Assembly: GCA_015039365.1 (NCBI GenBank)
Contig: WION01000285.1
Location: 1 to 64,000, forward strand
Direction of reading: 5' to 3'
Source: Amanita rubescens
Lineage: Eukaryota; Basidiomycota; Agaricomycetes; Agaricales; Amanitaceae
Length of the DNA: 64,000 bases
Position numbers and translations under genes: made by a program. The notes under the pieces are model-generated. The model saw only the letters and a list, made by a program, of their open reading frames with translations, searched no databases and was not told where the DNA came from. Of this stretch, positions 4,518-64,000 are shown one piece after another (the stretch's first letter is position 1; each line of letters opens with the position of its first letter).

Positions 4518-5953
4518 CTTGTATTGTCGACATTCTGGATATGTTTGTTGTACGAAGTACGCCCTAACTTGTTCCACTCGAGAGTCGACATGGTGACAGA
4601 TGCTCACAGTACCTTACAGGTAATCAAAATGATCCACTCTCTGTATAGTATGTGGTTTTCCTCTACATGGATTACGATCTTGCTGGTCTTCTTGAAAACG
4701 AACGCGTCAAGCTACAGCCCAGTCCACATTAAACTATATATGAAGCAGTTATTGGAAGGAACAGAGTATATGCATCGTGTATGCCTTTTCTCTCTCTCGC
4801 TCTACCGCCATATCCTAAAACCATGATCTAGAATCACATCCTCCATCGCGATATGAAGGCCTCCAATCTCCTGATATCTAATAGCGGCAACCTAAAATTG
4901 CTGACTTTGGTCTTGCCCGGTCCTATGACCCTAATGTGTCCCGAACTGGTCTTGACTCGCGCGGCCGAGAACGGCGATATACTAATTGTGTCGTCACGCG
5001 ATGGTATCGCCCTCCAGAGCTCTTGCTCGGTGCTCGACATTATGGCGGTGAAGTCGATATATGGGGTATTGGGTGTGTCCTTGGCGAGATGTTCTCTCGG
5101 CGACCAATTATTCCTGGTACATCCGACTTGGACCAGCTGGAGAAGATTTGGCAGCTCTGTGGAACGCCAAACCAACATTCATGGCCAAATTTCGATGCGT
5201 TGCCGGGTTGTGAAGGTGTCAAGAGGTTTTCGACGTATCTCAGGAGGATCAAGCAGGCTTATGAGAGCGTAGGGCCTGAAACGTGCGATTTGTTGGATAA
5301 GCTATTGACGTGCAATCCGCGAGAGAGGATTACGGCTGCACAGGCTTTGGATCATGAATACTTTTGGACAGATCCATTATTACCTGCTGATCCAAAGACG
5401 TGAGTGCCACCTCCCTCCCGACCTTTGAATCACAAAACTGATAACCTGCAGTTTACCGTCGTACGAAGTTTCTCATGAATTTGACAAGCGCGGGCACCGG
5501 AGTCAACATCCACCTCCTAGACCTCCCATACCACCCCATGGACCTGATCGTCCACCACCTGTACCTGGCCGTCCTCCCGGCGGAGGTCCACCACACCACT
5601 ATCCACCCGGTCCCGGCCGCCCACCTCCAATTCCGCCCCCAGGGTACGGAGGAGGACCACCTGGCGCGGGGAGAGGTCCACGAAGACCCCTTGTATTGCC
5701 GCCGGGTGGAGGAGGAGGAGGACCGCTACCGCGCCCACCGTCGCATTTACCGCCTAAGCCTCCTCCGCTGGCAGGGAGGGACGATGGGGATAATAGAGAC
5801 AGGGACAGAGATAGAGAGCGAGATAGAGATAGAGATGGGAGAGATAGAGATGGAAGAGAGAGAAGAGATGGACGGGAGAGGGATGGAAGGAGGGATAGAA
5901 ATGGATATGCGGACGATGGTGGTGGTGGTGGTGGAGAGTTAAATTATGGTTGA
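4518..5953 (+). CDS. BUR1: BUR1/CDK9-like protein kinase, copy 2 (5'-truncated)
   Basis: Second copy of the BUR1/CDK9-like transcriptional kinase. It begins at IVDILDMFVVRS, about a third of the way into a normal kinase domain, with no ATP-binding lobe upstream because another gene is juxtaposed. HRDMKASNLLI holds the catalytic loop, followed by the DFG region, [12 protein letters not shown] and the CDK-type C-lobe through [19 protein letters not shown]. An intron follows DPKT (about 5400-5450), then the Pro-rich and Arg-Asp tail to ELNYG. From the DFG motif onward the frame is open. Before it, single-base shifts are seen near 4722 (the VKLQPS/HIKLYMKQ junction) and near 4892. The N-terminal truncation makes an active kinase unlikely. 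Confidence 0.7.
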
Positions 5954-15963: not shown

Positions 15964-18900
15964 ATGACAGATGCCACCAGTGGACTTCCATCAAGTAATC
16001 TAATATGATGTCCTGGCATCCCCACTGTCTGACTGATACATATCAGGTACAGACGAGACACATGTTAAAATGCTTAGGGAACGATACCTATGCCCACATT
16101 TCTGTATCCTTATCATAGGGAGGGCTAATGCAGGCAAGACAACCATCCTTGAGAAGGTTTGTGGTGTAGCAAAGGGAACAAAGCCCATGGTATATGACGA
16201 AGATGGTAAGTCAGGCTGAACATTGTGCTTCTTCTACATATCAAGTTTCCTGTAGGCCAAGAACTGGAAGTGTCTGAATCTCATCTGATGCCATCATTTG
16301 AGGTGCACTTAATGATAATGAATGGATGTGCCCACTCATATGCATCAATAACAGAGAGGCCTACATGATATTGAACATCAGATTACATACCCTGGGAGTA
16401 ACTTTATCTTCCATGACTCTCAAGGATTTGAATCTGGTTCTACTGATGAATTGGTGGTTGCTTGGAATTTCATTGAGAAGAAGTCTGCAGAAACTGAGCT
16501 GAAAAATCAGTTGCATGCAATTTGGTATCCTGATTTATCCCTTTACATGGCTGGTTGACCAAGCTCTCTGTAGGTACTGCATACCCATGGACAGCTCTCG
16601 TCCCATGCCACCTGCAGAACTTGAATTTTTCAATAAAGGGACAGGCAGAGGTAAGTCCTAATGAATTCATATCTCATCTCACTGGTTTGGAGAGATTGTT
16701 TACCCTTACTATTGTTACTTCCTTGCATACACCAAGTACTAATCTATAGTGTACTGACTAGTAAATATTTCCTTTACAGTTCCTTTGGTGGTTATATTCA
16801 CTAAGTTTGATGGTCAAATAGCCAGTGAATTTGTCAACTTGAGTGATGCAAAGGATGAAGATAAGTGGGAGAGAGCCAGGGAAATTGCTGAAATTAATTT
16901 TCAGAAAGTTTATCTTCCTAAAGTTTTGGATGCCAAATATCCTCCCAAGGCATATGTGCGATTGGAAGGCAAGTGAAGATTTCCTTCCTGAAAAATGGGA
17001 GTAATTTACTCAATGTTATTTCATAGACATGGACTTACCAGAGAAGAATTGTGCTGAATTAACTCAGCAGACTGCTGATGCAATAAATGATGACAGCATA
17101 CATCAGCTGTTTGTTTCAACACAGATGAACAATCTGGACCTTTCTGTTAAATCTGCACTTCAGTGAGGGTCACATTCAAAATGTCACTTACTAACATTGA
17201 CATTGTTCAGACATGTCCTGAAATATAAACATTGGACATGGGATAAGGTCATTGTCATAGTTTTTTCAAAATTTCCACATTTCTGGGTAGGCATTTCTGT
17301 CAAGATGCACATTGGCATAAGAAAATTGAATGGCAATAGGTGGACAGGGAGGTAGGTGGTCTTCATATGAAATGACAAATACTTGCAAAAGGTGCATCAG
17401 GAGGTAAATAACACTCTAATGCCTTTACATGACAATAAGATTAGTCCTGCTTCAGATAGCCAAAAAACAACTGAGTGAAACACAGGTTGGTCATTACCAT
17501 ATTCTTGGTGGCACTGGGATCTGATGTTATTGATATCAGTGGGTAAGTGTCATTGAACATGAACAAGCATAGATCTGATATATTGTCTCATAACAACAGT
17601 TTGTGAGTAATTCTTCCTATTGGGATTAACAATCTTGTCCCATAATCTACAGCAAGTGAGTGATATGATCAATTTTGATTTTTGGTAAATGATCACATGG
17701 CACATCATATGACCAATAGCAAGTGAGTTGATATACCATTATAAGCAGACTTATCAATTCAGTCTCTTGTGGACAGGGAGTGAGTAATACAACACTGCCC
17801 CAGAGCATGTCTGACCTGCTTAAAGAAAGTAAGCAGCAATGATATTTGTGCAGTTTATCGGACTTGTAACTCAATGAACAATAGAAGGTTGGTGACATAA
17901 TGTTATCTAAAAGAAAATCTCTACAAACATCATTGAATTAATAACAACAGAAAGTAAGTGACATTTCCTTTCTGTCTGTTTATAAACATTCCATCTTGTT
18001 GCAAAACAACAGACAGTAAATATTTCTCCTTTTAAAAGCCCCTTCACAAGCTATCACAAAATAAACAGGATGTATGTGATACTTTTGTGGGATGTGAATA
18101 TCATATGAAATCCTATGGCAAAAGGGAGTCAGTGGCATTTTTTTCTTTCTTCCTGGCAACTCATTATGATAATTCCATTCTAAAAGGAAGTGAGTGATCT
18201 GGCCACTCTGCTGTGAGACAAGTTGGGCACATTCCTTTGTTCTACAGATTGTGAGTGATATTGCAAGTCTTGTGAAAAGTGGTGAAATCACCTCTTTTCC
18301 TATGAACATAGAAGGTTAGCAACATCATGGTCATGGTGGTTTAAAATGACCTTATCACTATGGCCAATAGTATGTAAGTAGCATTGCAAATATTTCTGAA
18401 AAGAGGTTCTATGATTTTTTCCTGATGACTCATAGGATGTGAGCAACATGATGTTTGTAGAAGCAGGTTCATCACATCTTTTCTTATGACCAACAGGGGG
18501 TGAGTGACATTCAAGCCCATCTGGTGAAAGGCAGTCTCATCACATCTTTCTTTTCCTATGACCAACAGCAAGTGAGTGGCATTGGACATTTTGTGAAAAG
18601 CCATATCATCACACCTTTTCCTATGACCAACAGTTGGTGAGTGACTCACATGACACAATTTAGTCTCATCAAATCTTATCCTATGATAAACAGTCTGTGA
18701 GTGACATGCACATTTTGTGATCACCACATCTTTTCCTACTAGACCAAAAGTTTGTGAGTGACATTGCACATTTGTGAAAGGCAGTCTCATCATATATTTT
18801 CCTATGAGCAGCAGTTTGTGAGCAACATTGCACATTTTGTGAAAGATCATGGTCACATCACATTTTTTCATATGACCAGCAACCAGTGCGTGACAAGTTT

Positions 18901-21900
18901 GTGAAAGGTACTCACATCACATGTTTTCCAACTCTTATGACCAACAGCCTGTGAGTGACATTGTACATTTTGTGGAAGGCAGTCTAATCACAGCTTTTCC
19001 TATGATGAACAGCCTGTGAGTGACATTGCACATTTTGTGAAAGGCAGCCTCACCACATCTTTTCCTATAACCAACAGGTGGTGAGTGACCTTGCATTTAT
19101 GAAAGGCACTCATGTTCCTATGATCAAAAGTCTGTGAGTGAGATTGCACATTTTGTAAAAGGCAGTCTCATCACATCTTTTCCTGACACAGATTGTGAGT
19201 GACATGACACATTATGTGAGAGGGAGTCTCATTACATGTATGTATGACAAACAGCGAGTGAGCAACACTAGTAGCACATTTGGCTTCATCGCATCTCATA
19301 CAACCAAAAGTCTGTGAGCAACATTGAAGATTTCTATGGAAGGCAGTCTCATCACCTCTTTTCCTATGACCCACAGCTTGTGAGTGACATGGCACATTTT
19401 GTGAAAGGCAGTCTCATTACATGTTTGTATGATGAACAGCGAGTGAGCAACACTAGTAGCACATTTTGTGAAAGGCAGTCTCATTACATTTTTTCCTATT
19501 ACCAACAGCAAGTGAGTGACATTGCACAGTTTGTGAAAGGTAGTCCCACCACATCTTTCCCTATGATCAACAGGTGGTGAGTGACATTACACATTTTGTG
19601 AAAGGGAACAGTCTCATCACATCTTTTCCTATGGCCAACAGGAAGTGAGTGGAATTGCACATTTTGTGCAAGGCAGTCCTATCACATCTTTTCCTATGAC
19701 CAACAGCTGGTGAGTGACATTGCACATTTTGTGAAAGGTATCCGATCATATCTTTTCCTATGACCAACAGGAAGTGAGTGACATTGTGCACTTTGTGAAA
19801 GGTGTCTCATCACATCTTTTTCTATAACCAAACAGTCTGTGAGTGACATTGCACATTGAAAAGCAGTCTCAGAGTCACATCTTGTCCTATGACAAACAGA
19901 GAGTGAATGACATTGCACATTTTGTGAAAGGCAGTCTCACTACAGTTTTTCCAATGACCAACAGCTTGTGAGTGACATGGCACATTTTGTGAAAGTCAGT
20001 CTCATCAGATCTTTTCCTATGTCCAGGAGTGGGTGAGTGACATTGCACATTTTTTGAAAGGCATCCCATCACACTGTTTTCCTATGACCAACAGTTGGTG
20101 AGTGGCATTGCACACTTTGTGGGGGCAGTCTCATTACATCTTTTCCTTTGATCAACAGTTTGTGAGTGACATTACACAGTTTGTGGAAGCAGTCTCATCA
20201 CATCTTTTCCTATGACCAACAGAGAGTGAGTGACATTGCAAATTTTGTGAAAGGTAGTCTCATCACATATTTTCCTATGATCAACAGGGAGTGAGTGACA
20301 CTGCACATGTTGTGAAGGCCACATCTTTTCCTATAACCAACAGGAGGTGAGTGACATTGCACATTTTGTGAAAGTTAGTCTCATCATCTCATCACATCTT
20401 TTCCATGGTCAACAGGTGGTGGGTGACATTGCACATGTTGTGAAAGTTGGTCTGGTCACATTTTTTCCTATAACCAACAGGTGGTGAGTGACATTACACA
20501 TGTTATGAGAGTTCATCTGGTCACATTTTTTCCTATGACCAACAGACAGTGAGTGACATTGCACATTCTGTGAGAGGCAGTTTTATCCCATTTTTTCCTA
20601 TGAAAAGGAAGTGAGTGATGTTGCATATGTTGCAAACAGCAGTCTCACATCTTGTCCTATGAACAACAGAAAGTGAGTGACACTGCACATTTTGTGAAAG
20701 GCTGTCTCACACTCTTGTCCTATGAACAACAGAAAGTGAGTGACACTGCACATTGTGTGAAAGGCAGTCTTTTCCTATAGTATGACCAACAGCAAGTGAG
20801 TTCAGACATTGCTCATTTTCAAGTGCACAGTCTCATCACATCTTTTCCTATGACCAACAGCAAGTGAGTGACATTGCTCATTTTGTGAAAGGTGTCTCAT
20901 CCTATGACCAACAGTCTGTGAGTGACATTGCACATTTTGCAAAAGGCATTCCTATCACATTTTTTCCTCTGGCCAACAGTTGGTGAGCACATTGCACCCT
21001 TTGTGAAGGGTGGTCTTATTACTTTTTTCCTATGATCAACAGTCTGTGAGTGACATTGCACATTTTTTGAAAGCAGTCTCATCACATCTCTTCTTAATCA
21101 ACAGGAAGTGAGTGACATTGCACATTTTGTGAAAGTCAATCTCACCACATCTTTTCCAATGACCAATGGCAGATGGTGAGTGATATTGCATATTTTGTGA
21201 AAGGCAGGTCTCATCACATCTTTTCCGATGACCAATGGCAGATGGTGAGTGACATTGCATATTTTCAAGCAAAAGGCAGTTTTATTACTTTTTTCTTATA
21301 ATCAACAGGAAGTGAGTGACATTGCACATGTCATGAAAGGCAGTCTCGTCACATCTTTTTCTATGACCAACAGGTGGTGAGTGATATTGTACAGTTTGGG
21401 AAAGGTGACCCACATCTTATCCTATGACCAACAGTCTGTGAGTGACATTGCACATTTTGTGAAGGGCAGTCTCATCACATCTATTCCTATGACCAACAGC
21501 GAGTGAGTGATATTGCATATTTTGTGAAAGGCAGTCTCATCACATCTTCTCCTATGAGCAGAAGTTGGTGAGCAACATTGCACATTTTGTGAAAAGCAGT
21601 CACATCATATGAATTTTTTAACCAACAGCAAGTGAGTGACATTGCACATTTTGTGAAAGGCGGTCCCATCACATTTTTTGTATGACCAACAGCAAGTGAG
21701 TGATGTTGCACATTTTGTGAAAGGTAGTCCCAACACATGTTTTCCTACTATAACAGGTGGTGAATGACATTGCACATTTTGTGAAAGGTGTCTTATCACA
21801 TCTTTTCCTGTGACTAACAGGGAGTGAGTGACATTGCACATTTTGTGAAAGGTGGTCTCATCACATATCTATGACCAACAGGAGGTGAGTGACATCACAC

Positions 21901-23148
21901 ATTTTGTGAAAGGCAGTCATAGTATCACATCTTTTCATATGACCAACAGCAAGTGAGTGACATTGCACATTTTGTGAAAGGCAGTCATATCATTTTTTCA
22001 TACTATGACCAACAGCAAGTGAGTGACATTACACATTCTGTAAAAGGCAGTCTCATCACATCTTTTCCTATTACCAATAGTTTGTCAGTGACATTGCACA
22101 TTTCATGAAGATTCTCATCTGAGTCACATCTTTTCTTATGACCAACAGCAAGTGAGTGAAATTGCACATTTTCAAGTGAATTGCAGAGTCACATCACCTC
22201 TTTTCCTATGACCAACAGCAAGTGAGTGACATTGCCATTTTGTGAAAAAGCAGTCTCATTACATTGTTTCCTATGACCAACAGTTTGTGAGTGACATTGC
22301 ACATTTTGTGAAAGGCAGTCTCATCACATCTTTTCCAATGACCAACAGTGTGTGAGTGACATTACACATTTTGTGGAAGGCAACCTCTTCACATCTTTTC
22401 CTTTGATGCAGCTTGTGAGTGACATTGCAATTTTTTTCTGACCTGCATTCTCAGCATACTTCAATTCATGAATGCTTGATGTACATATCATTATATCAGA
22501 AAGTGAGCATCTTGCCATATCTTTTCTATGTCTTCCTTTTACATTTTATCATCATAGATTGTAAGATTCCATTTCAACTGACATGTGATCACTCATCTAA
22601 CTTATATCACTCTACAGGTGAGTGATGCTGGTTCATGAGGTATCAATTTCATATCAGTTTGCATGCTAGTGTGTAGGTCTCATAATACATTGGATGCCTT
22701 ACTATTCTACCTTATGACTAGGATGAACTTTTCTCCATGTTTGGGCATGGGCAAAGGAATTTTGCAGTCAAGGTATTTTTGTACTTTTTTTGGGGGGTGG
22801 TACACAGCTGACTCTGCCATTGCACCAAGCCCACTGATTGCCAAGTCTTAGTTTGTAAATTGCTCTTTTTCATTTACTGCATTTATACTTAAACCTTCAA
22901 GCAATTATCATCATTGCCAAGCTATCCTTTTGGATCAATAAACCATTTCTACCATCAGTCACAGAAGCCTTGGATCAATTTAAGCAAAAAGGCTATGTTC
23001 AGAAGCTGAAGACTCAAATTACACCAGACCTTATGGACTCTGGTCATCAAGATTTTGTCACATTACTGTATAGGAATGTCACTCACATTGATGGTATGTA
23101 GTATGTATCTAGTCATGCACTACTTATGAATAATTTATGGCAGGGTGA
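15964..23148 (+). CDS. P-loop GTPase (GRANAGKTT family) with a giant micro-exon region
   Basis: Exons 15964-15994, 16047-16205, 16256-16302, 16355-16524, 16574-16650, 16780-16968 and 17027-17162 join without a frame break. They encode a G domain: FCILIIGRANAGKTT (G1), RGLHDIEHQ and FHDSQGFESG (G3), QLHAIWYCIPMD, and VVIFTKFD (G4). The exon at 16968 uses a GC donor (gcaagt). Exon boundaries from 17163 to 17400 are uncertain. Then come GAG (17401-17403), a 30-nt exon 17456-17485 (IAKKQLSETQ), about 81 three-base candidate exons (17540-22672), 22722-22772 (DELFSMFGHGQRNFAVK) and 22922-23093 (LSFWINKPFLPSVTEALDQF). A short last exon ends at 23148. The family is common in Agaricomycetes and its cellular role is unknown. 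The central region is discussed as the repeat array. Confidence 0.75.
17540..22672 (+). repeat. Tandem array of about 80 intron-like units separated by exactly 3 nt
   Basis: Each unit is about 45-110 nt, mostly near 60, starts like GTGAGTGACATTGCACA and ends like TTTTCCTATGACCAACAG. Between the AG of one unit and the GT of the next there are exactly three bases. My hand count gives 81 such triplets of 24 kinds: CAA 12, TCT 7, TTT, GTG and GAA 6 each, AAA 5, and so on. None is TAA, TAG or TGA. Units at the left end (17540-18430) and right end (22430-22672) share little sequence with the core, yet keep the GT...AG borders and the 3-nt spacing. The orientation matches the host gene, and exons on both sides are in phase 0. 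I read it as a chain of single-codon micro-exons. Two spots allow another parse: 20027-20032 (GAGTGG or TGG) and 22618, where AG and GT touch. Confidence 0.9.
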
Positions 23149-40552: not shown

Positions 40553-41968
40553 ATGGTTTTTTCGAGCATATTCAGCAATCCCTTGTGAGGTTTGCGCCCT
40601 CAGTTATTCCTTTTACTGATTTTTGTGTTATCCAAGGGACGTGCTTTTCCTGCAAGATTTCACCGGAAGTCAACAACCCTATATTGACGCGGCTCACGCA
40701 GAAATAAGGAATATATGTGCAGCGCTTATGCAACACGGCCACTTCGCCCCCGGCGATCTCAAATTTGGCGTTGCTGCGTTTAGAGATCATCCCCCCCAGG
40801 CCAAGAGTTTCATCACAAAAGCTTTAACGCCCCGTCCTGGTTCCAACCCTGAACAAGTTGCGTTCACCACCGATCCGGGAACCGTGGCATACGTTCTGAG
40901 TACTCTGTCGGCTGATGAGGGCGGTGACGGCCCAGAAGCCGTCGCAGATGCTTTACAAATGGGACTGCTAGCAGACTGGAGGAATGACGCATATAAAGTC
41001 GCTATTCTGATTACTGATGCCCCGCCTCACGGTCTCGGCGAAGACGGGGATACATTTCCGAACGGCTGTCCTCATCGTAAGTGATTCTGTTCTGTTCTGG
41101 AATTGGAATGGGACCCCACTGTCACAGAAATTGATCCATTACGCATGGCGTCTCAAATGGCCAATGCCGGAATTACTCTCGTATGCCATCCCATATCCAC
41201 TCCGTCCAAACGCTGATAAATCGTGCAGTACGTAGTTGCGTGCGAACCTGACCTGAGTCGCTGCTACGATGTGAGTACCTGACCCATTCAGAGTCGGCGG
41301 TGACAGTCAAATCGTATCAGCGAGCTCGCAACTTCTATGAAGGACTTGTGAAAAAGACTGGGTAATCACATCGTCTTCCAAGTTCCCTCGCGACTGACAT
41401 CAGAATAGAGGTCGAGTTCTTGACTTGGGTGACACTAGCAACCTCCCAAACCTCATTCTCGGTACTGTCCTCGAAACCCTTGATCATGAAGCCATCGTAT
41501 CGCAGAACCTCGACACCGTACAATTCTTGGTTGAACAAGATGGCAATGCAACCAACGAAACGATCGCAAAGGAACTACATGCGAAGCTCAAGGCACAAAA
41601 AGTGAAAATGAGAACATTGAATGTCGAACACATCGTTCCGCAGGGTAGTAAAGCGAGTAAGGCTTCGCAGGCTTGGTTCGAGGCAGAGACTCTTGCGGAG
41701 GGAAGAGCGAAAATACAGGATGTGAGTCGGAGTCTGTCAATGAATAACATCATGAGTTATTCAAAACCGTCAGGTCGAGGCTGGCACATTTGTCAGTCGG
41801 TATGTATCTGAAGTTCCTCAGCCTCCCCCGACAATCGAGACAAGAGATATCAGTCTTCCCCAGGTAACTGCCGCTTTTCAATTTTGTCGCTTATGTCTCA
41901 CAGCCTTTTTTTAGGTGGAGGGCATTGTGCAAAAGGCTCGCATGAGATCTAGACCAATTCGAGTATGA
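40553..41968 (+). CDS. VWA-domain protein 1
   Basis: The first exon, MVFSSIFSNPL, is spliced (donor gtgagg) to DVLFLQDFTGSQ. The latter contains the MIDAS metal site D-x-T-G-S of von Willebrand factor A domains. Then EIRNICAALMQHGHFAPGDL, FGVAAFRDHPPQ, STLSADEGGDGPEAVADALQ and ILITDAPPHGLG. A short intron at about 41079-41127 is followed by DPLRMASQMANAGITL. Then VVACEPDLSRCYD, NFYEGLVKKTGGRVLDLGDT, LFxKLK-like segments and the basic C-terminus (RMRSRPIRV). First of three tandem paralogues. No kinase domain, no signal peptide. VWA domains bind protein partners; the partner here is unknown. Confidence 0.85.
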
Positions 41969-42604: not shown

Positions 42605-44015
42605 ATGACTTCGTCAACAACTCCAGGTAAACCCCTGTAAGATTTCTTCTTACAATTAGCTATTCATCCAACCGATCCTTGTGTTTCCAAGCGACGTTCT
42701 TTTCCTGCAGGATTCCACAGGCAGTCAAGGACCCTACATTGACACAGCTCGCGCAGAAATAAGGAATATATGTGTATCCCTGACGCAACAAGGCAACTTT
42801 GCACCAGGCGATCTCAGATTTGGCGTTGTCGCATTTCGGGATCATCCTCCACAGGATCAATCTTTCGTCACGAAAACTTTAACACCTCGTCCTGGTTCCA
42901 ACCCTGAACAAGTTGGTTTCGTTGCTGACCCCGGTATCGTGGCAAATGTTCTAAGTACTCTGTCGGCATCTGGTGGTGGTGACGGTCCTGAAGCTTCCAC
43001 CGACGCATTACAGACGAGTTTAACAGCTGACTGGAGGGATGGTGCATCTAGAGTCGTAATTCTTATTACCGATGCTCCACCACATGGTCTTGGTGAAAGC
43101 AGTGATGGGTTTCCAAACGGCTGTCCTCTTGGTGAGTAACCTAGCATATTTTGGAGGAGGCTTAACATTCATTGCCACAGGACTTGATCCATTACGCGTT
43201 GTGTCCTCGATGGCCAATATTGGAATCACCCTCGTATGTAGATTGAATCCACTGTGCCTATTCCAGCGCTGATCAAGTTGTAGTATGTAATAGCATGTGA
43301 ACCCTCTCTGAGTCACTACAGTGTGAGTCCTCTACTATCTCAGAACTAACTTTGATTTTCTCATTGTGTCAGCGAGCTCGCAGCTTTTACGACGGACTTG
43401 CCAAAAAGACTGGGTAAAGAGACTTTTTTGTTTCTCGCTATCAGGCTGACGTTGCAATAGTGGCCGCATTCTTGACCTGGGAGGCTCCGGAAATCTCCCA
43501 AACCTCATCCTCGGTAGCATACTCGAAACGATGGATCATGAAGCAATCGTTTCGCGAAACCTCAATGTTGTGCGGTCATTGGTCGAACAAGACAGCAGTG
43601 CAAGCAACGAAACAATCGCAAGAGAACTGCACGCAAAGCTTAAGGCACAGAATGTGCAAATGAGAACATTAAATGTTGAACATGTCGTTCCACAGGACAG
43701 TAGAGTGAGTCAGAATGCACAAGCTTGGTTTGAGGCGGAGACTCTTGCGGAAGGAAGAGCAATGGCATCAAATGTAAGACTCGTCGTTGATGAATAACAT
43801 TGTGGATTATTGACAGTTATCAGGCTCAAGCTGGCAGCCGTTACGTCTCTAGCACCCCTCAGGCTGCCCCAACGATCGAGACAAGAGATATCAGTCTTCC
43901 CCAGGCGGGTATTCCCAATTTTATTGGTGAATTCGTATCTAAGGATGGATATTTTTTTTAGGTCGAGGGAATTGTACAGAAGACCCGCATGAGATCTAGA
44001 CCGACGCGAGCATGA
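42605..44015 (+). CDS. VWA-domain protein 2
   Basis: First exon MTSSTTPGKPL, intron with donor gtaaga, then DVLFLQDSTGSQGPYIDTAR with the MIDAS D-S-T-G-S. The order of segments is the same as in gene 1: FGVVAFRDHPPQ, LSASGGGDGPEASTDALQ, ILITDAPPHGLGESSDGF, DPLRVVSSMANIGITL, RARSFYDGLAKKTG, ILDLGGSGNLPNLILGSI. It ends VEGIVQKTRMRSRPTRA at 44015. Closer in sequence to gene 3 than to gene 1. All introns sit at the same places as in the other two copies. Confidence 0.85.
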
Positions 44016-44517: not shown

Positions 44518-45928
44518 CGAGTACCCCTGGCAAACCCCTGTAAGACTCTTTCATGCAATGATCCATTGGCCCAACTGATCGTCGTGTTTCTTAAAGGGAC
44601 GTGCTTTTCCTGCAGGATTTCACTGGCAGTCAACAGCCCTACATTGACACAGCTCGCGCAGAAATAAGGAATATATGTGTTACCCTAACGCAACAAGGCA
44701 ACTTTGCACAAGGGGATCTCAGATTTGGCGTTGTCGCCTTCCGAGATCATCCTCCACAGGATAATTCTTTCGTCACGGAAACTTTAACACCTCGTCCTGG
44801 TTCCAACCCTGAACAAGTTGGTTTCGTTGCTGACCCCGGTGTCGTGGCACATGTTCTAAACACACTGATGGCATCTGGTGGTGGTGACGGACCCGAAGCT
44901 GCCACAGATGCTTTAGAGACGAGTTTAACGGCGGACTGGAGGGATGGCGCATCTAGAGTCGCAATTCTTATTACCGATGCTCCACCACATGGTCTCGGCG
45001 AGAATGGTGATGGGTTTCCAAATGGCTGTCCTCTTGGTGAGTAACCTAGCATATTTTGGAGTATGCTCAATATCTACTGCCACAGGACTTGATCCATTAC
45101 GCGTTGTGTCCTCGATGGCTAATGTTGGAATTACCCTCGTACGTCGATCTGAGTCTACTGTCGATCTAATCACTGAAATATGACATAGTATGTAATAGCT
45201 TGCGAACCTAGCCTGAGCCACTACAATGTGAGCTATGTAATCTTCCAAATTCAAATTCAACATCCTCATTGCATCAGCGAGCTCGAAGCTTTTACGATGG
45301 AGTTGCCAGAAAGACTGGGTAAAGAAACTCTTATCTTTGTCATGATTAGACTGAAATCTCATTAGCGGTCGCATCCTTGACCTGGGCGGCACCGGCAATC
45401 TCCCAAACCTCATCCTCGGCACGATCCTTGAAACGATTGACCATGAGGCTATCATTTCGGAGAACCTCGAAGTCGTACAGTCATTGGTTGAACAAGACCG
45501 CAGTGCAAGCAACGAAACGATTGCAAAGCAGTTGTTCGCGAAGCTTAAGGCTCGGAGTGTTCAAATGAGAACATTGAATGTTGAGCATGTTGTTCCACAA
45601 GATAAAACGGCGAGCCAAAATGCACAAGCTTGGTTTGAGGCGGAGACCCTTGAGGACGCAAGAGGAAAGGTGATAGATTTAAGTCTTATCGTTGATTATA
45701 CTATAGTTTACTGACTGTTATCAGGTTCAAGCCAACCGGTTTACCAGGCGCAAAACCCGTGGCGCTCCCCAGGCTCAGGCTGCCCCAACGATCGAGACGA
45801 AACATATTAGTCTTTCCCAAGTGAGTATTCCCAAATTTTTGGTGCACTTGTATTCAATCATGCATATCTTTTCCCAGGTCGAGGGAATCGTGCAAAAGAC
45901 TCGCATGAGATCATCTAGACCGACATGA
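44518..45928 (+). CDS. VWA-domain protein 3
   Basis: First exon MASSSTPGKPL, intron with donor gtaaga, then DVLFLQDFTGSQQPYIDTAR with an intact MIDAS (D-F-T-G-S). Then FGVVAFRDHPPQDNSFVTET, MASGGGDGPEAATDALETSL, ILITDAPPHGLGENGDGF, VVSSMANVGITLV, and EAFTMELPERLGSRILDLGG-like exons. The tail QANRFTRRKTRGAPQ is followed by VEGIVQKTRMRSSRPT. Third tandem copy, lying directly upstream of RPT6 in the same orientation. Apart from a diverged basic linker it matches gene 2 closely, so a recent duplication is likely. Confidence 0.85.
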
Positions 45929-46120: not shown

Positions 46121-47588
<1,468 letters not shown>

Positions 47589-48235
47589 TCCTTGTTCTTT
47601 TGGAACGGCGTCGTATTCCACGTGTATTCGTAATCTGCAATTTTACATCTCTTTTCTTAATTGGGTTGCGGAACGGCTTCATATGGATCCAAAGTGTGCC
47701 CGTAGAAGCAACGGGTATGTGTTTTTTGCGACGCTACCTAATGGATTAGGTGATGCTGAATATAAAGGTTAATTATATTCTCCCTGTGATTCGCTGATTT
47801 ACCATAGACTCGGGTAGAAGGAAGAATAGAGCTCTTCATTGTTAAGCCTGCCGGACTTACATCGCTTCTTGTCTGCGACCCTGCTTATGCCGCTTTCCGT
47901 CAAATTTGAATGCCATCTTATGCCATGGTAGGCGTTCAGGGCCCAAATACACGTACGCTCAATTCAGCTTCTTCCGTAATCGGGCGCAAATACGAGTCAT
48001 GATTTTGTGGGTGTGTGTATCCTGTTTACCTTATTTAGGTTCCGCAGCGCTTATAGACGCTCGTCTAGTGGGTACGACACGGGGAACTATACATTCCGAC
48101 ATTGTGTTCCATTCTTGATGTGACTCTCCAAAGTGCGGTGCAGCCACGAGGCATTGCTTTTTAAGCTCTGGTCGGCCGTCCGTGATCAATCATCCCCCAG
48201 TCCTTCATCTTGGGTGACTGACTCAGTGGACTAGC
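47589..48235. other. Intergenic, no gene seen
   Basis: Promoter region of the first zinc-finger helicase. No motif recognised. Confidence 0.5.
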
Positions 48236-51200
48236 ATGCCAAATTGTCCAAACGTTCTAGCCCGTGGTACATGCGCTCAGCCCGGCTGTCAATATGAACA
48301 TCATATCCTTGTCTGCGAGCCCTGTGGTTTTCTAGCACCCAACGAAGGGGCGCTAAATTTTCACCGGAATGGACGTCGTCATCATAATCGCGTGTCCGGG
48401 AAAAGTACAATCTATCACTGTTCCCCCTGTGGGACGAACGTCGGCAGCGGATGCTGGAACCAACATATTGCGGGATCCAAACACCAGAAACGCGCCAAAC
48501 GAAACAATGTTGTACCAGACATTGAACCGTTGCAAGGTATTGACGTCGTGGGACAGAAGTATTGCAATACCTGCAAGCAGGCCATGCCGATCGCTTCATG
48601 GGCGATGCATCAGCACACCGCTGCACACAAAATGAGGGAAGTGTACGCCTCGTATAGAGCTGCGCTTGATGAGGCGGAAAAAGACAAGAATGGTATTGTC
48701 GTAGATGGTAACTTCGATTTCAATTTCGTAGATCCCACCCGCGCCTCTCTTGGAGTAGATTCGACTGTTGTATTGAAAACAACAACGCCCAATTTACGGG
48801 TCAAGTTGGTTTCGTTGAACCGTGTATCATCCAGGGCGGGTACAGACACGACGTCAGTTGTGATTCCTTTTCACTTGTTTGTGAAGCTAATCCTAAAACT
48901 CTTTAGCTTTTCCGTTGTTCCAGACGGCAACAATCGAGATATCACCCCTAGATCAAGCGTCAAGCTTATTGTCACGCTCAAGCAAATGTACATCGGCCGC
49001 TACGAGGACCGATTGGAGATGACGTTCGAGGATATTCAACTCAGAAAGCGGTTCTTAATTTCGCGGGCTATCAATGCTGTAGTAGGAAACAAAGAAGAGC
49101 ATGAGAGACTGAAGGCTAAGGCACCATATGTGCCGCGACGTAGAACGGAAAGAAAACCCGAAGCAAGGATCGTTGAAGGTGTCAAGCCGCCCGCTCTCAA
49201 TATTATTCCCTATGTCGGCAAACTCCCGATGGCACCCATTCCCAATGGATTGTTGGCGATGCTATCGGAGGGTTCTGTCAAAGAAACAGTTGATCGCCTT
49301 CGAAGGGCATATTTGCCAGCAACCCTTGATTCTGATTCATTTGCCAGACATTTCCGAACATTGATATGGATTGAAGAACAACGATCGAAGTGAGTAATTT
49401 TGGAACATCTACAAGTGAGCGTAGTTGACTCATGGGTCGTAGCGAGGACCTCCAACATTATGATATAATTGATGCCACGCTTCAAAAACATAACAACTAC
49501 TTCTAGTAAGTTAATTTTACTATCCGCAGCTTGACATACTTACTCATGGTTATAGTGTTGAAGTTCCCGGATTGGCGGAAAAGCGGCCGAGCGTGCTCGT
49601 CGGTAAGTTTAAGTGCATTACTTCTTCCCTGGCCTTATTGGCACTGAAATACGGCAGGAGATCGCATCCTCGTTCAACAACGCGGTGCACCTGAAGGGCA
49701 TTGGTACGAAGGATATGTCCATGTCGTTCGGCAGAAGGAAATCGGACTCCGATTCCACCGCTCCTTCGCTGGATGGAGTGAAGGCGAGCGATATCATGTT
49801 CGATTCAAGCTGAATAGAATTCCCTTCAGGCGACAACACCATGCTCTTGATCTGGTTTTCCAAGAAGATCGTATACTATTTCCTAACGCCAGTCATGCGA
49901 CATCTCTTCCTCGTATTGACTCGACGCTCGCTCTCGCCCCCAGATTCCACAATCCAGATATTGCGTCCAATCCACAACAAGCACGAGCTGTGATGTCAAT
50001 CACAAAGCTTCCACCGGGTTCTCCTGCTTTTGTGATCTTTGGCCCGTGAGTCTCGTACTTCTCTTCTCTTTATTGGTAGACTAATAGTTTTACAGTTTCG
50101 GAACCGGCAAGACAAGTACAATGATAGAAGCCATCCTTCAAGTCCTTAACGCAAAACCCGTAGCCCGCATTCTTGTATGCGCACCAAGCAACTCGGCCGC
50201 AGATCTGATCGTTACGAAATTACGTTCTATCTTGGACAACGAGAAGCTTTTCCGGTTCATGGCTCCCTCACGCTCCAAGAACCAGGTTCCGGACGACGTC
50301 TTTCCGTATACGTACTTGAAGGATGATATCCATTTTGGTGTGCCGATGAACAAGATTAAGCGCTTCAAAGTCATTGTCTCTACCTGTGTTTCTGCCTCAT
50401 TCGCTGCGGGGATCGGACTTCCCCGTGGTCATTTTACGCACATTTTCATCGATGAAGCAGGCCAGGCCACCGAGCCCGAAGCCATGATCAGTATCAAAAC
50501 ACTTGCAGACTCGAATACAAATATTATTCTCGCGGGCGACCCTAAACAGCTTGGGCCCATTATTCGCTCCCCCGTTGCCAGAGAACTTGGGTTACAAAAG
50601 AGTTACTTGGAAAGATTGATGGACCGCGATGTTTATGAAATTGACCACTATTCTGGATTGACGTACGTCTTAGATCTCATTGATAGCTGTTTCTCAAGCC
50701 TTCTCAGTGTTATCAAATTATTACAAAACTATCGTTCACACCCTGCCATTCTCAAGTTCCCGAACGAACAATTCTATCGTGGCAAATTACAAGCCAAAGC
50801 TAGCCCAGCAAAAATCAACAAGTACTTGGGTTCTTCGATATTAGCGTCCCCAACTTTCCCTGTTGTATTCCATGCAGTTTTCGGAAAGGATGACCGAGAG
50901 GCATCGTCACCTTCTTTCTTCAACGTCGATGAGATATTGCAAATTAAACAATATGTTGAAAGGTTACGAGCCGATAGAGAGCACCGTACAAGTAAGCAAC
51001 AAACGTGCCAATATGAGTGATTGTTGTTGCTGACTTTGTTCCTAGCGGAGGACGACATTGGAATAATTGCTCCATATCATGCGCAATGTGTTAAAATTCG
51101 TACTGCTCTCCGAGGATTCGCTGATGGAATCAAAGTCGGCAGCGTAGAGGAGTTCCAAGGACAGGTCAGTTATTGGATACAGTCGTGAAACTGCGCTATA

Positions 51201-51669
51201 TCATGGTTTTAGGAACGGCCAGTCATAATCATATCGACAGTGCGCAGTAGCAAGGATTTCATCGAGTATGATCTTCGTCATACCTTGGGTTTCGTGGCGA
51301 ACCCCCGTCGATTCAATGGTTCGTGGTAACTCTACAATATATATCACAGACATGCCTGACGCGCGATTAGTTGCAGTTACTCGAACTAAAGCACTCCTGA
51401 TTATTATTGGCGACCATCAGGTATTGTCGTTGGACCCTTTGTGGAGGTCTTTTTTGAATTACGTCTATAATAACGGGGGATGGAGGGGTCCATACCCCGA
51501 TTGGGATACAACTGCAGAAGCTGACATCAACGGTGGTTATGACACGGTTGTCCGTGAGCGTGCAAAGGCCAACATGAATGAATTTGCAAGTCGTATGGAA
51601 GCATTGATGAGGGAAGAGACAGATGATAATGGTGCTGGAGTGGATCAGCCTTGGAGAGATGTTGAATAG
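48236..51669 (+). CDS. CCCH/C2H2 zinc-finger SF1 RNA helicase, SDE3/MOV10 type, copy A
   Basis: The N-terminus has a CCCH finger (C-x8-C-x4-C-x3-H in [19 protein letters not shown]) and then three C2H2 fingers: [33 protein letters not shown] and [17 protein letters not shown] beta-rich middle follows ([34 protein letters not shown]). The helicase core has GPFGTGKT (Walker A, built across an intron at about 50046-50094), [13 protein letters not shown] (motif II, DEAG), GDPKQLGP (III), NYRSHPAIL (IV), [13 protein letters not shown] (V) and [10 protein letters not shown] (VI). The ending is [20 protein letters not shown] plus an acidic tail. All frames join by short introns and no damage is seen. 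SDE3/MOV10 relatives act in RNA silencing and defence against transposons or viruses; that role here is inference. Confidence 0.88.
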
Positions 51670-58472: not shown

Positions 58473-59203
58473 CGTGGGACTTGTGTTATATTGCAAAGCC
58501 ATGGTGAAAAAAAGGGCCCATAGATCGATCATCCTCAAACTCAAAAAGACTCTCCCAGACCTCCTGTCGTCCCCCCGCGCTCATGCATCAATGCATCATT
58601 GGCACACTCCTCACAGACATCTTCTCCCACTCATCATGTGTCCGATCCTTCTCTTCTCCGCACTCACATTATCTTTCACAAATCGCCATCGACTAGTAAC
58701 GCATGTCTGCAAAGCGGAGGCGTAAACACTTCAACGATGGCCTAAGCACAAACAAATAGTTCAGTCCTATCTCTGGAAAACACTATAACGTGCACCTACT
58801 GAAGGAAGGGATATGCATAGATATGAATGCCCGTGGGTGATCTGGCACTTCCCATCAATCCTGCTTTGAAGGTTTGGCTTGAATGCTCATATTAGTCTAT
58901 TTGAATCGCGCGCCTTCGTCATTAAACCAGGGCACTCCGTAGCTTCTACAATCCAAAAAGAAGACTTCTTCGGCTTTCACATGTTTGAGCATTCGGCCGA
59001 CCCAGGTACATTCAGTCAGCTTGTCGACTCATTGACTCGGATCCGCGGGAGCGCGAATTTAGATACCCAAAAATACTGTTTGTATTGCGCCATGCGGCAG
59101 CAACGAGGCTTCCTCATAATCAATAAAGCTTTTGAGTCATCAAACGTAGACATTTCCAACCTTTCTCTGTTCCCCTGTTCAACCCCGTACACAAAGCTTT
59201 GAA
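58473..59203. other. Intergenic, divergent promoter region
   Basis: No supported gene. An ORF at 58879-59202 runs into the start of helicase copy B and may be 5' untranslated sequence. Confidence 0.5.
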
Positions 59204-62200
59204 ATGACGAACTGTCTCAATGTCCTGTCCCGTGGGTCATGCACAGTGCCGAACTGTGCCCACGAGCACAACATTCTGGTTTGCGAACCCTGCGGGTTCA
59301 TAGCAGACGACGCAAACGCATACACTGGCCACTTGACTAGTAATCGACACAAAACCCGTATCGCCGGCCGCGGCATAACGCTATACTGTCCTGTTTGCGA
59401 GATGAATATCGAGAGTGGGACTTGGGCATCCCACAAGGCCGGTAGCAACCACCTCAACCAAGCCATCCGAAAACGAGTCTCACCGGATGTCGACCCCGAA
59501 GAAGGAGCTAACGATCAAGGCCAGAAGTACTGTCAACTTTGTAAGCGGGCCGTTAGGAATTCGGAATGGGCTCGACATCTACGGGGCACGTGGCATTTGA
59601 AGAGGAAAGATTTTGCTGCGTATCAAGCTGCCCTGAACGAAGCCGAAAGAGATAAGAATGGGATTTCTATTGACGGGAAGTTGGACTTTGGCATAGTTGA
59701 CTTCACTAAAACCAAGAAAACCATTACACGCCCTATCGTGCTGAAAGCAACCGCAGCGAATGTACGCGTTAGACTCACCGACTCGAAGCTCGTGTCGTCT
59801 AGGGCGAATATGGACACCGCGTTAGTTTCGTTTATCTTGTTTTTTCTCGCTAATGCTATGTTCATTTTAGTTTTACTTTAGCGCCAGAAGGCAATAATCG
59901 CAACATTTCTTCAGGGACAAGCGTTAAACTTTTTGTAACGTTGAAACAGACATATATCGGACGTTACGAAGACCGTCTTGAAATGTCTTTTCAAGACCTT
60001 CAAACCAAGAAGAAGTTCTTTATTTCCCGCGCCTTGCATGTCATAATTGGAAGTAAAGAGGGCCACGAGCAGTTGAAGGCATCCAAGCCCTATGTAGCAC
60101 GCTCCGCTGCTCCCAAAAAGGCAGAAAGAAAAACAATTAAAGGGATAAAACCACCTGCTTTGACGTCCATTCCATATGTTAAAAAATTAAAACCGGCGCT
60201 CATCCCCAAAAGATTGCAAGACGCAGTTTCAAACGGGCCTATGGCGGAGATCATTGGGAGAATAAGATCCGATTTTCTTCCGCCCACCCTCAATTCACAG
60301 TCTCTCGCTCGGCATTTCAAGACTTTGCTATGGGTTGAAGAACATAGAGCGCAGTATGTTCAATGGTTTTCACCTTTCTTGAGTTCTGATCAAGCACAGA
60401 CAAGACCTTGAGCGGTACGACATACCAGATGCAAGATTGAAAAAAGGCGGCCCTTTCTATTTGTAAGCGGCGCTCCTCTCACAATATTTGGTGTGGCTTA
60501 TGAGGCGCAGCGTTGAAGTTCCCGGCCTTGCGGAGAAAAGACCAAGCGTTTTACTAGGTCTGTCCTAAAATTCCCGTTGCATAGCTCCAATAGTTAAAGA
60601 ATCATGGCAGGTGATCGCATATTAGTGCAGCCGCATGGCGCGCCCGAAGGACATTGGTTTGAAGGCTACGTGCATATTGTCCGCGAAAAAGAAGTCGGAC
60701 TCAGGTTCAACAAGTCATTCAAAACATCTCAACTGTATCACGTACGCTTCAAACTGTGCAGGATCAATTTCAGACGCCAGCATAATGCTCTTGACGAAAA
60801 TTTCCACGAAGATCGCATCTTATTCCCAAATGTTACGCATTCTTCCGCACTCTCTCGCGAAAGAGGTGCTAGTAAGGGGAAGTCACGTTACTATGACCAC
60901 AACATCGCAACAAATCCCCAACAAGAATTGGCTATCCGTTCAATTACAAGACTTCCTCCTGGATCACCGCCTTTTGTTCTCTTCGGACCGTACGTCGATT
61001 CTCGGTACAATTCATCTGTCTCATTAAAGGACTTTACGTAGGTTCGGGACTGGGAAGACTAGCACGATTATTGAAGCAATCCTGCAAATTCTTAAATCAG
61101 ATACTGAAGCACGGATACTTGCATGTGCCCCAAGCAACGCCGCAGCAGACTTGATCGCTACGAAGCTCAGCACCATCCTGAACAACCAGGTGCTATTCCG
61201 ATATAACGCTCCATCACGTAGTATTAAGGGGATATCAGCCGAAGTCTTGAAGCATTCCCACTTCGTACAGGCCGACGACAGTCAACCGTCACATTTCGGG
61301 GTCCCGTCGGATAAAATCAAGCGTTTCAGAGTCATCGTTTCAACTTGTATCTCTTCATCGTTTGCCGACGGTATTGGGATACCACGCGGCCATTTCAGCC
61401 ACATATTCATAGATGAGGCTGGTCAAGCCACCGAGCCTGAGACGCTCGTATCTATAAAGACCCTTGCAGATTCAAGGACCAACATTATACTAACCGGAGA
61501 CCCAAAGCAGTTGGGACCTGTTATCCAATCCCCCATAGCGCGACAACTAGGTTTGCAAATCAGTTATTTGGAACGGTTGATGGAGCGCGAGGTGTACAAC
61601 GTAGAGAATTTCAGTGGTGTAACGTAGGTGCATCCGTTCAATTATGGTTCCATTGCCTCACCTTGCGTGGTCTAGCGTTGTAAAACTGTTGAATAACTAT
61701 CGATGTCATCCAGCTATACTCAAAGTCCCGAACGAGCAGTTCTACAACGGTGAGCTGAAAGCAAAGGCAAACCCCGAAAAAGTTAACAAATATCTGGGGT
61801 CTCCAATCCTCCCGAACGTCAAGTTCCCTATTGTATTCCATGCCGTTTTGGGAAAAGATGAAAAGGAAGCATCATCACCCTCTTACTTCAACGTAGATGA
61901 GGCTTTGCAAGTTAAGCAATATGTTCAGATGTTACAAACCGCCAAGAGATATCATACGAGTGAGTCGCAACACATCCTTTGTTAGCGGTCAGTATAAGAG
62001 TCGCTTTAGGTGAAAAGGATATCGGGATCATTGCGTTATATCACGCCCAATGTCTTAAAATCCGAAAAGCACTTCACGGAATTGCAGAAGAAATCAAGGT
62101 TGGTAGCGTTGAAGAGTTCCAGGGACAGGTTAGTTGCTCGATTCTAGTCGGAATGTTATTTCTCACCCCTTCGTAGGAACGTTCTGTGATCATCATGTCG

Positions 62201-62619: not shown

Positions 62620-62966
62620 CGTTATATATAATACAGTATAAGTAATGGCGAATCCATCTTCGTGTCGGCTCCAGCCGACGGTGTTATGTATGTATCTGAA
62701 TTTTAGGCTTCAAATTGATGATGGTGTGGGAGGATGTTCGGTTAAGCTCCACCGTGTTACGTGAATTTCTCAATATAGTATAGACGTTGCTAAGCGATTA
62801 GCGCTTGACAAACACGGTGGCTCGCGGCAGGGCCGATGGCCCCATTCTTAAATGAGCCTCTCCATAAAATAATGTGGCCTCATTTCACTCAGTGGGCCTC
62901 ACACCACCTCAAGAGGAGCGAGCGTGCATTTCGTGCATTTACCCCTCCTTCACTGACATACTCGCG
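62620..62966. other. Intergenic between helicase copies B and C
   Basis: No gene seen. Short tandem spacing (about 350 bases) between same-strand copies. Confidence 0.5.
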
Positions 62967-64000
62967 ATGGCGCGAATTTGTCCCAATTTTCTTGCCTATG
63001 GATCGTGTTCCGACGCGTCTTGTAACATGAACCACAACACATTTACGTGTGAGCCGTGTGGTTTTGTCACGTCAAGTGGGGCATACTACAAGTCGCACAT
63101 GGAAGGGAAGAAACACCGAAAGTGCATTGCCTGCCGCAATGTGACACTATTCTGTCCTCTCTGCCAGAGAAACATTCCAAGCGCTGCTTGGACTGCTCAT
63201 GTGGGGGGTCGCCCTCACCGTGAAGAAGCAGCGCGACAAAATGCCTCCTCAGATGTTTCTCCTCAGGAAGGCATAACCTCCGCGACCGAGGTTTACTGCG
63301 ACATGTGCCGTTTTGCGGTCCGCCGGTGGGGATGGGAACGCCATGTTACGAGCCCCCGACATAAGAAGAGAGAAGAATACTTGTCTTTCAAGGCCGCGTT
63401 GGATGAGATGGAGAAGGACAAGAATGGGTTGATGACCGAAGGCGACTTTGACTTTGGCATTGTGGAACCTAATATTGCTGCTTATGGCACGCGTCGCGCC
63501 GCGAAGGTTCGGTTGACTGCACCTTCCTCGAGGATTTGCATGATATCCTGCCGACTTCTATCTTCCAAAGACTCGCAAGACGAAGCTAGTCCTGTGTACG
63601 TGTAATCTCAGTTGTTATGAAGTCAATTAATAAAATTGCTTACTTAGGTTTGAAATAACGTTGGAGGGCGCGAATCGCAATATAACGACTATTACACCGA
63701 TCACTGTGCAGGTGACTTTCAAACAGAAACATATTGGCCGGTACGAAGACAGGATTGAGATGTTGTTCGAGGACATCCAGCTTGATCAGCGATTTATCAT
63801 TTCCAAGCCTTTGTCTGCAATTGTCGGCAGCAAAGCAGACCATGAAGCTCTCAAGCCAATAGCACCCTATACTGTGCAGCCCCGTACAACGCGAGAACCA
63901 GAACTCAAGGTCATTGAGGGCGTCCAACCTCCATCCACTCAGGCAGTCCCTTATATTGGAAGGCTTCCTCTCGCCCTCATTCCTTCTCATCTGTTGTCAA
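62967..64000 (+). CDS. CCCH/C2H2 zinc-finger SF1 RNA helicase, copy C (partial at window end)
   Basis: Starts MARICPNFLAYGSCSDASCN; the CCCH spacing is kept (C-x8-C-x4-C-x3-H). C2H2 fingers: CEPCGFVTSSGAYYKSH, CPLCQRNIPSAAWTAH and CDMCRFAVRRWGWERH. After an intron (gtacgt...acttag) come FEITLEGANRNI and HIGRYEDRIEMLFEDIQLDQ, then EGVQPPSTQAVPYIGRLPLA up to the window edge. The helicase core is beyond 64000. Clearly the third member of the family, and the most diverged at its N-terminus. Confidence 0.85.

Follow-up and report, generated by a model that had tools for sequence, protein, structure and literature searches.

Can a segment of protein be encoded with nearly every codon in an exon of its own? 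The question is raised by a 64,000-nucleotide stretch of Amanita rubescens DNA (the window; contig C207 in a 75.7-Mb assembly of 786 contigs). On its forward strand, at about 15964-23101, the window holds a gene whose N-terminal part is P-loop GTPase-like, and within this gene lies an array (17540-22672) of 81 units of the form AG-NNN-GT. Our answer, to which we give a probability of roughly 93%, is that this array and its counterparts across the genome are spliced one-codon cassettes that form a fast-diversifying protein segment in an Amanita family of GTPase-like genes.

The exons of the window gene contain GRANAGKT, DSQG, and TKFD, the G1, G3, and G4 motifs of P-loop GTPases. Pfam gave sub-threshold matches only for P0001, P0016, P0022, P0121, and P0126, among which P-loop GTPases were the best (MMR_HSR1 scored 19.3 bits for the relative P0016, below the cut-off of 21.9). 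We also sought NACHT and ankyrin matches by Pfam in these five proteins and found none.

An initial annotation, made from the letters of the window, had counted by hand 81 triplets of 24 kinds without a stop codon, and our recount gives exactly the same. AG precedes 81 of 81 triplets and GT follows 81 of 81, as had been claimed, and all are in a single orientation. The spacing of the units is 49-112 bp, with 65 bp the most frequent. In a chain search for the generic AG-NNN-GT pattern with units 48-82 bp apart, the region scored 402; after shuffling in 50-base blocks, none of 40 sequences exceeded 6.7. The outermost units were said to resemble the core in little but these borders and the 3-nt gap. 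This describes most of the first 15 introns, which keep AG and GT despite their low similarity to the core and whose identity to the core intron is within about 0.1 of that of their own interior-shuffled versions, but the intron of unit 3 is a clear exception (0.91 versus 0.73 when interior-shuffled). The exons at 17456-17485 and 22722-22772 both read in frame 0, in agreement with the phase that had been proposed for them.

Array codons joined in order in transcript-like proteins

The protein database contains proteins from short Joint Genome Institute (JGI) contigs (among them P0001, P0004, P0072, P0121, and P0126), with frames that are unbroken across the introns of the gene. Because the contigs are shorter than the genomic span and the frames are unbroken, the contigs behind P0121, P0072, and P0126 are best read as cDNA.

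P0121 has 156 amino acids on a contig of 2,135 bp and reads LSFQFQPPPVSIRSLRQVELESRLEWLFRGEVVTEKQQSLSDMMEVSQKLQQVGEQQFQQFCLKICDELFSMFG... Its first 83 residues cover 4,139 bp of the genome, versus 2,135 bp for the whole contig. When we aligned these 83 of the 156 residues to the window with splicing allowed, 81 were identical, in 62 exons (18634-22772). There were 57 one-codon exons, 56 of which match, and the score was 346 (versus -227 to -191 for five shuffled peptides). A plain alignment of the peptide from the window array with P0121 scored 277, and the best of 1000 shuffles reached 62. The E-to-D substitution at 21105, one of two, is shared with a near-allelic copy of the gene (L009).

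The initial annotation had considered that its proposal would be refuted if transcripts always skipped the array. P0121 instead carries 61 of the 63 array units of the covered stretch, in order, and then runs into the exon at 22722, so the interpretation as one-codon exons is supported for 18634-22672. For the units at 17540-18569, support for splicing comes solely from paralogues (P0001, P0004, and P0072 on L039). The claim that every gap is exactly three bases held for the one-codon exons that match but not for one 6-nt exon (QP) or for three exons that use an upstream AG acceptor (QF, EW, and QKL). These four exons and two units that are missing from P0121 (20733 and 21500) are exceptions that all preserve the frame.

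Two more proteins fit other copies of the gene. P0072 (285 amino acids on 1,099 bp) has three stretches of GTPase exons, of 60, 46, and 25 residues, that do not differ from L039. Of the 71 of its 285 residues that we compared with the array of L039, 69 aligned and 64 were identical, and 38 of 39 one-codon exons match (score 195 for the array part, versus -171 to -130 in 12 shuffles). P0126 (120 amino acids on 993 bp) is identical to L025 at all 32 of the residues compared, with six of six one-codon exons, one two-codon exon, and the residues DQQ accounted for by an upstream AG. The spliced score is 174, versus -72 to -36 in 10 shuffles. By plain local alignment P0126 is not above shuffles (47 versus 49), and its support is the spliced alignment with the downstream exon. 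Before the aligned stretch there is, by eye, an apparent partial retention of an intron.

P0001 (386 amino acids on 1,446 bp) reads ...NEQLSETKWFEKGKKESDREIEYDG... and P0004 (311 amino acids on 1,903 bp) reads ...NKQLSEAQWFEHGKKDTDKQIVYDG..., and on sequence grounds both stretches would be the product of the conserved block of one-codon exons in relatives. In this block, P0001 matches L011 at 19 of 26 residues and L028 at 18 of 24 aligned residues. With so few identities, we rejected P0001 as the product of either locus; it comes from a relative. No fetched array matched P0132 or P0134 above shuffles. A third protein search, with short pieces over the 5' block, gave six matches, and the five that we read (all but P0146) are truncated or read through introns. 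We found no retrocopies of the spliced gene: a 90-nt query of joined exons matched the genome in five places, each time over one exon (31 bases), and a protein search, run without a positive control, returned nothing.

In these transcript-like sequences, then, the codons are joined in order, and in the genes short GT...AG introns set nearly every one of these codons apart as an exon. The genes encode a GTPase-like protein in which a hypervariable segment of about 12-75 residues separates the G domain from a conserved C-terminal part. In the family, GC donors (GCAAGT) are seemingly used as well: at 16969, between GTPase exons of the window gene, and in the array of L039, at the codon CAT in the fit of P0072.

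A gene family whose introns can be nearly uniform while codons change

The array unit has 140 matches elsewhere in the genome. All 19 of the unit-match loci that we fetched carry the GTPase flank, at 83-98% identity to the window (for L014, just a 339-bp piece of the flank lies within the fetched stretch), and six further GTPase paralogues from outside the list of unit matches likewise carry an array. Arrays are thus present in 26 of 26 searched copies of the GTPase gene, including the window. We examined 29 loci, and the chain search covered 26 of them. The three later loci are L039, with an array; L040, with a partial array and larger exons; and L038, a contig end with an array and the 3' flank. 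A query with the GTPase exons had 231 matches in the genome (150 candidates were scored), and these 29 loci are the ones in which arrays were examined.

The first 15 triplets are near-constant and encode W F E/Q Q G K K E/K T D R/G E I K/E Y/F in most copies. Beyond the 15th exon, both sequence and length are specific to the locus, with 12 (L015) to 74 (L028) further exons if L013, L024, and L027, which are cut or interrupted, are left aside. L009 (C278:202500-212400) is near-allelic to the window gene, with flanks that are 97.6% and 99.6% identical, and may be the other haplotype of a dikaryon. Two deposited A. rubescens gene models of this family, P0006 and P0002, end before the array and lack the hypervariable segment, so standard annotation seems to miss it.

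The triplets are under coding constraint. In 19 of the 26 copies (seven near-identical ones were left out), we used a profile that was blind to the triplet to pick 722 triplets, keeping only sites with AG and GT borders (six were dropped). Given the column frequencies, 35.3 stop codons are expected, but we saw one (in L021), and the minimum among 2000 permutations was 23. For some residues a single codon dominates: for example, CGA makes up 109 of 118 arginine codons.

The introns between these triplets can be nearly uniform. For 11 loci, we compared 65-bp units after exon 15. In five of the arrays (L010, L011, L012, L016, and L017), the 62-nt introns of different units differ by 0.1-1.6% (0.001-0.016), versus 49-70% for the triplet positions (16% for the third position in L011). 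Intron divergence is higher in L029 (5%), L023 (7%), L032 (9%), L025 (10%), and L033 (25%), and in the window the introns differ by 23% and the triplets by 64-77%. When two units have the same intron, their triplets usually differ (1,388 of 1,688 pairs). The genome contains 352 exact copies of one 62-nt intron (reversed control, 0). This intron is found in 16 of the 26 copies, whose flanks are down to about 0.88-0.89 identical to each other (divergence of up to about 11%), and is absent (0 copies) from the window array.

Between loci, too, codons can change while introns do not. L016 and L019 differ at 4 of 3,025 intron bases and 4 of 153 codon bases (Fisher's test, p = 3e-4), and L016 and L018 differ at 7 of 2,948 and 7 of 150 (p = 1e-6), a roughly 20-fold higher divergence at codon positions than in introns. 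Several of these codons differ at two or three bases together, and the intron that follows is unchanged. No codon distinguishes L012 from L014, and one of them has a whole unit more. We also compared codon order with the identity of 1.1-kb flanks for 15 loci, considering pairs with over 93% flank identity. Codon order is clearly common to L016, L018, and L019 and to the window and L009. In other pairs the codon strings are no more alike than shuffled ones despite similar flanks (99.2% for L018/L022, 99.1% for L011/L015, and 98.8% for L010/L018).

Units travel together with their codons. Among units with the same minor intron variant (10 loci), the preceding codon is the same in 13 of 26 pairs (4.2 expected), and the following codon is the same in 10 of 28 (4.6 expected). 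Across 12 loci, three-codon words recur within loci 43 times (24.4 ± 5.2 in shuffles, with a maximum of 41), and adjacent codons are identical in 85 of 513 cases (65.6 ± 7.1 in shuffles). Between loci, the excess of three-codon words is mild at most (126 versus 101 ± 13).

This identity of introns and turnover of codons across the family is more surprising than the microexon array itself. It was not visible to the initial annotation, which had a single copy to work with.

Alternative explanations, mechanism, and known systems

Several results weigh against our reading. The cDNA nature of the JGI contigs is judged from the proteins and from contig size, not from the DNA of the contigs, and no transcript-like protein reaches units 1-18 of the window (17540-18569), as P0121 starts at 18634. 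The fit of P0072 to L039 skips two residues and is bad in a short part (PTKGI). P0124 matches L040, which has larger exons, in only 51 of 83 aligned residues; the members of the family are not all equally split into one-codon exons. Stops are present within the array chains of L020, L021, and L022, and there is one in L030; these copies are apparently decayed members, as expected in a large family. In 14 copies, conservation in the conserved block exceeds that of intron interiors only slightly (6.25% versus 10.25% nucleotide differences), and its codon differences are mostly nonsynonymous (224 versus 26 pairs). L025, L029, L032, and L033 have 1, 3, 2, and 7 intron columns, respectively, that are as variable as the least variable triplet position. 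Between the window and L009, the excess of codon changes is small (159 of 4,451 intron bases versus 16 of 228 codon bases, p = 0.018). Five-codon words common to loci number 0 (1.3 on average in shuffles), which also leaves the exchange of long blocks between loci unsupported. Finally, assembly errors in the arrays could mimic some of the codon differences between near-identical loci.

How else might such arrays arise? Tandem Repeats Finder reports an ordinary 65-bp array in the window, and each unit repeats intron-like sequence, as would a neutral minisatellite inside one large intron whose triplets are never exons. We rejected this explanation, which is extremely improbable: stops are depleted, variation is concentrated in the triplets of the five arrays with near-uniform introns, and transcript-like proteins hold the codons in order. 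Since P0121, P0072, and P0126 carry the codons, it is contradicted unless these proteins come from other genes that are free of introns. Instead, an older contiguous exon could have been split at nearly every codon boundary by insertion of a mobile intron, so that the codons are old and the introns young. An exact intron in loci with diverged flanks would fit with this, as would codon order that is unique to each locus at the level of five-codon words. Introners, or introner-like elements, are near-identical spliceosomal introns in many copies (PMC4457414, PMC9860276) and are known in fungi (PMC4457414), but they insert into many genes, whereas the Amanita copies are tandem and one codon apart. 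At 20 of the 20 array loci that we checked by flank (19 plus C12, with not all 352 copies of the intron placed), the array lies in this one gene family. We know of no introner that inserts exactly every 3 nt. The dominance of one codon for some residues, intron variants that travel with codons, and codon content that is wholly different between some genes with 99% identical flanks also argue against insertion, and we consider it quite improbable.

Two other explanations accept that the codons are exons. If mutation were targeted to codon positions and the introns were kept uniform by ordinary homogenisation, then we would expect comparisons such as L016 versus L019 and L018, and full turnover of codon order and content within about 1% flank divergence. 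However, replacement of a unit by another that has the same intron would just as readily change several bases, half of the pairs with a common minor intron variant keep their codon, and no enzyme or template was identified, which makes targeted hypermutation doubtful. Alternatively, the segment might be spliced but serve as a tolerant linker, in which any codon other than stop is accepted and diversity is not selected for. Its composition and length do vary widely between loci, and P0117, a Mycena model from the wider family, by eye passes almost directly from FPHVW to the C-terminal part. But introns and codons should be equally subject to neutral change, and codons differ more in L016/L019 and L016/L018; also, units with identical introns mostly differ in their codon. 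We therefore regard a tolerant linker as unlikely.

Our preferred reading, spliced one-codon cassettes, suggests a mechanism. Intron definition is the usual mode of splicing for fungal introns of about 60 nt. If the arrays are spliced in this way, the spliceosome would be indifferent to exon length and an exon of 3 nt would be no obstacle. Each unit (a codon plus an intron) would be a frame-neutral cassette, open to duplication, loss, or exchange with the frame intact, and the near-identical introns could provide the homology for copying or replacing units by recombination. The introns would be homogenised between units and loci, and differences between codons would be kept by diversifying selection or renewed faster by a codon-directed process. 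The near-absence of the segment from Mycena P0117 suggests that the array grew at the position of an intron by tandem copying of that intron and a border codon.

Recognition seems the likeliest role for the segment, given its fast turnover, the size of the family, and the analogy with the repeats of fungal NOD-like receptors (NLRs) and with non-self receptors. Going further, and with somewhat less than even confidence, we propose that the arrays are a genomic device for writing protein segments residue by residue: the introns, hundreds of near-identical 62-nt copies, would be interchangeable connectors, and an active process would rewrite the codons for about 12-75 residues across a large family of GTPase-like genes, which would supply the mushroom with fast-renewing recognition proteins. 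As part of this tentative proposal, the active process might be either intron-guided exchange of units or mutation aimed at three bases. Codon sites change faster than introns in L016/L019 and L016/L018, weakly so in the window and L009, and not at all in L012/L014, and targeted mutation is compatible with these data as well. Introns that are kept while the codons between them are replaced are the reverse of the usual pattern, and the array offers a way to test whether proteins can be built by recombination with introns as the connectors.

Amanita is ectomycorrhizal, as are truffles. The initial annotation knew of no comparable gene, but truffle (Tuber) nank genes are described as carrying several to tens of 3-bp, codon-sized microexons that undergo alternative splicing (PMC3689799, PMC4986451, PMC10197012). 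By these accounts, the Amanita array is not a wholly new kind of structure, and both are expanded fungal gene families in which tens of codon-sized microexons are said to diversify the protein. As described, the nank genes are ascomycete NLR genes that are diversified by alternative splicing, whereas the Amanita family is basidiomycete and GTPase-like, and nearly all of the units are included in P0121. A further difference may lie in the introns, which in Amanita are homogenised across loci while the codons are hypervariable. Without a NACHT or ankyrin match in Pfam, the Amanita family is not of the nank type (NACHT-ankyrin) and only works alike. The splitting of exons is extremely fine, with 56 matching one-codon exons in one transcript-like protein. 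This would be the second fungal gene family with codon-sized exons after the nank genes, which suggests a recurring route to fast diversification.

The repeat of the HNWD genes of Podospora is 42 residues long. The closest evolutionary parallel is with such fungal NLR repeats, which have high identity and show both concerted evolution and positive selection (PMC4986451). Like the Amanita units, these repeats are kept alike both inside a gene and across paralogues, with diversification at certain codons; unlike them, the Podospora repeat is itself protein-coding, whereas the Amanita repeat is mostly intron, with one coding codon per unit. Schistosoma micro-exon genes have many very short exons of 3-81 bp (PMC10526429), but these are of mixed length with long introns, whereas the Amanita genes have one-codon exons and near-identical 62-nt introns. 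Among the matches listed in our literature searches, which covered few subscription papers, we found no description of arrays of one-codon exons in Amanita or in a GTPase gene.

Features of the host gene and of the rest of the window

The features of the gene are collected in Table 1. At 22617/22618, two intron-like stretches abut without an exon. This junction may be a zero-length exon or a recursive splice site, and it is possibly a unit that has lost its codon.

Table 1. Predicted exons, array blocks, and exceptional units of the window gene
Feature	Position	Strand	Evidence
Predicted first coding exon (ATG); start codon inferred	15964-15994	+	sequence reading
GTPase exon with P-loop GRANAGKT	16047-16205	+	sequence and homologues
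GTPase exon	16256-16302	+	sequence and homologues
GTPase exon with HDSQG	16355-16524	+	sequence and homologues
GTPase exon	16574-16650	+	sequence and homologues
GTPase exon with FTKFD, then predicted GC donor (GCAAGT) at 16969	16780-16968	+	sequence and homologues
GTPase exon, end SAL(Q)	17027-17162	+	sequence, copy alignment, homologues
Exon HVLKYKHWTWDKVIVIVFSKFPHFW	17211-17286	+	alignment of 26 copies; similar stretch in P0001, P0004
12-nt exon VDRE	17340-17351	+	copy alignment; similar stretch in P0001, P0004
Predicted one-codon exon GAG (E; GTG = V in some copies), before array	17401-17403	+	copy alignment; one residue (V, E) there in P0001, P0004
30-nt exon IAKKQLSETQ	17456-17485	+	sequence and copy alignment
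Conserved block, 15 one-codon exons W F Q Q G K K K T D G E I K Y	17540-18373	+	chain search and copy comparison; spliced counterparts in P0001, P0004, P0072/L039; outside P0121 coverage
One-codon exons GAT, GGG, CAA at 18436, 18497, 18569	18436-18571	+	chain search; outside P0121 coverage
Hypervariable core, 60 units of ~65 bp, GTGAGT...CAG introns plus one codon each	18634-22414	+	repeat analysis and P0121
Exon CAGTTT (QF), upstream AG used	18812-18817	+	P0121
6-nt exon CAACCA (QP), replaces unit called TGC at 18887	18880-18885	+	P0121
Exon GAGTGG (EW), upstream AG used	20027-20032	+	P0121
Unit AAA, absent from P0121	20733-20735	+	P0121
Unit CGA, absent from P0121	21500-21502	+	P0121
Exon CAGAAGTTG (QKL), upstream AG used	21559-21567	+	P0121
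One-codon exon AAA (K)	22500-22502	+	P0121
One-codon exon ATT (I)	22558-22560	+	P0121
CAG/GTGAGT junction without exon, within 22610-22672	22617-22618	+	also in L028, L030, L032, L033
One-codon exon TGT (C)	22670-22672	+	P0121
Exon DELFSMFGHGQRNFAVK, after array	22722-22772	+	P0121 (DELFSMFGDGQRNFAVK)
Exon PTDCQVLV(S)	22830-22854	+	sequence; P0121 reads PTDCQVLVS
Last exon (S)IIIIAKLSFW...THIDGM stop; exact stop inferred	22902-23101	+	sequence and P0121

Elsewhere in the window, three similar open frames stand in tandem by eye (40620-41084, 42660-43139, and 44595-45044), and the one that we tested, at 42660-43136, matches a von Willebrand factor A domain (PF25106). Similar gene copies, again by eye, lie in series at 48218-51669, 59150-61985, and 62868-63605; in the first of these, 50088-51017 matches the helicase domains AAA_11/AAA_12, and 48218-49390 looks zinc-finger-like by eye but matched no Pfam family. 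Near the start of the window there are duplicated proline/arginine-rich frames (539-1178 and 5429-5953, by eye) with minisatellites, and a protein kinase frame (PF00069, 4885-5403) lies just upstream of the second. Finally, an AAA ATPase exon (PF00004) at 46364-47197 resembles a proteasome regulatory subunit.

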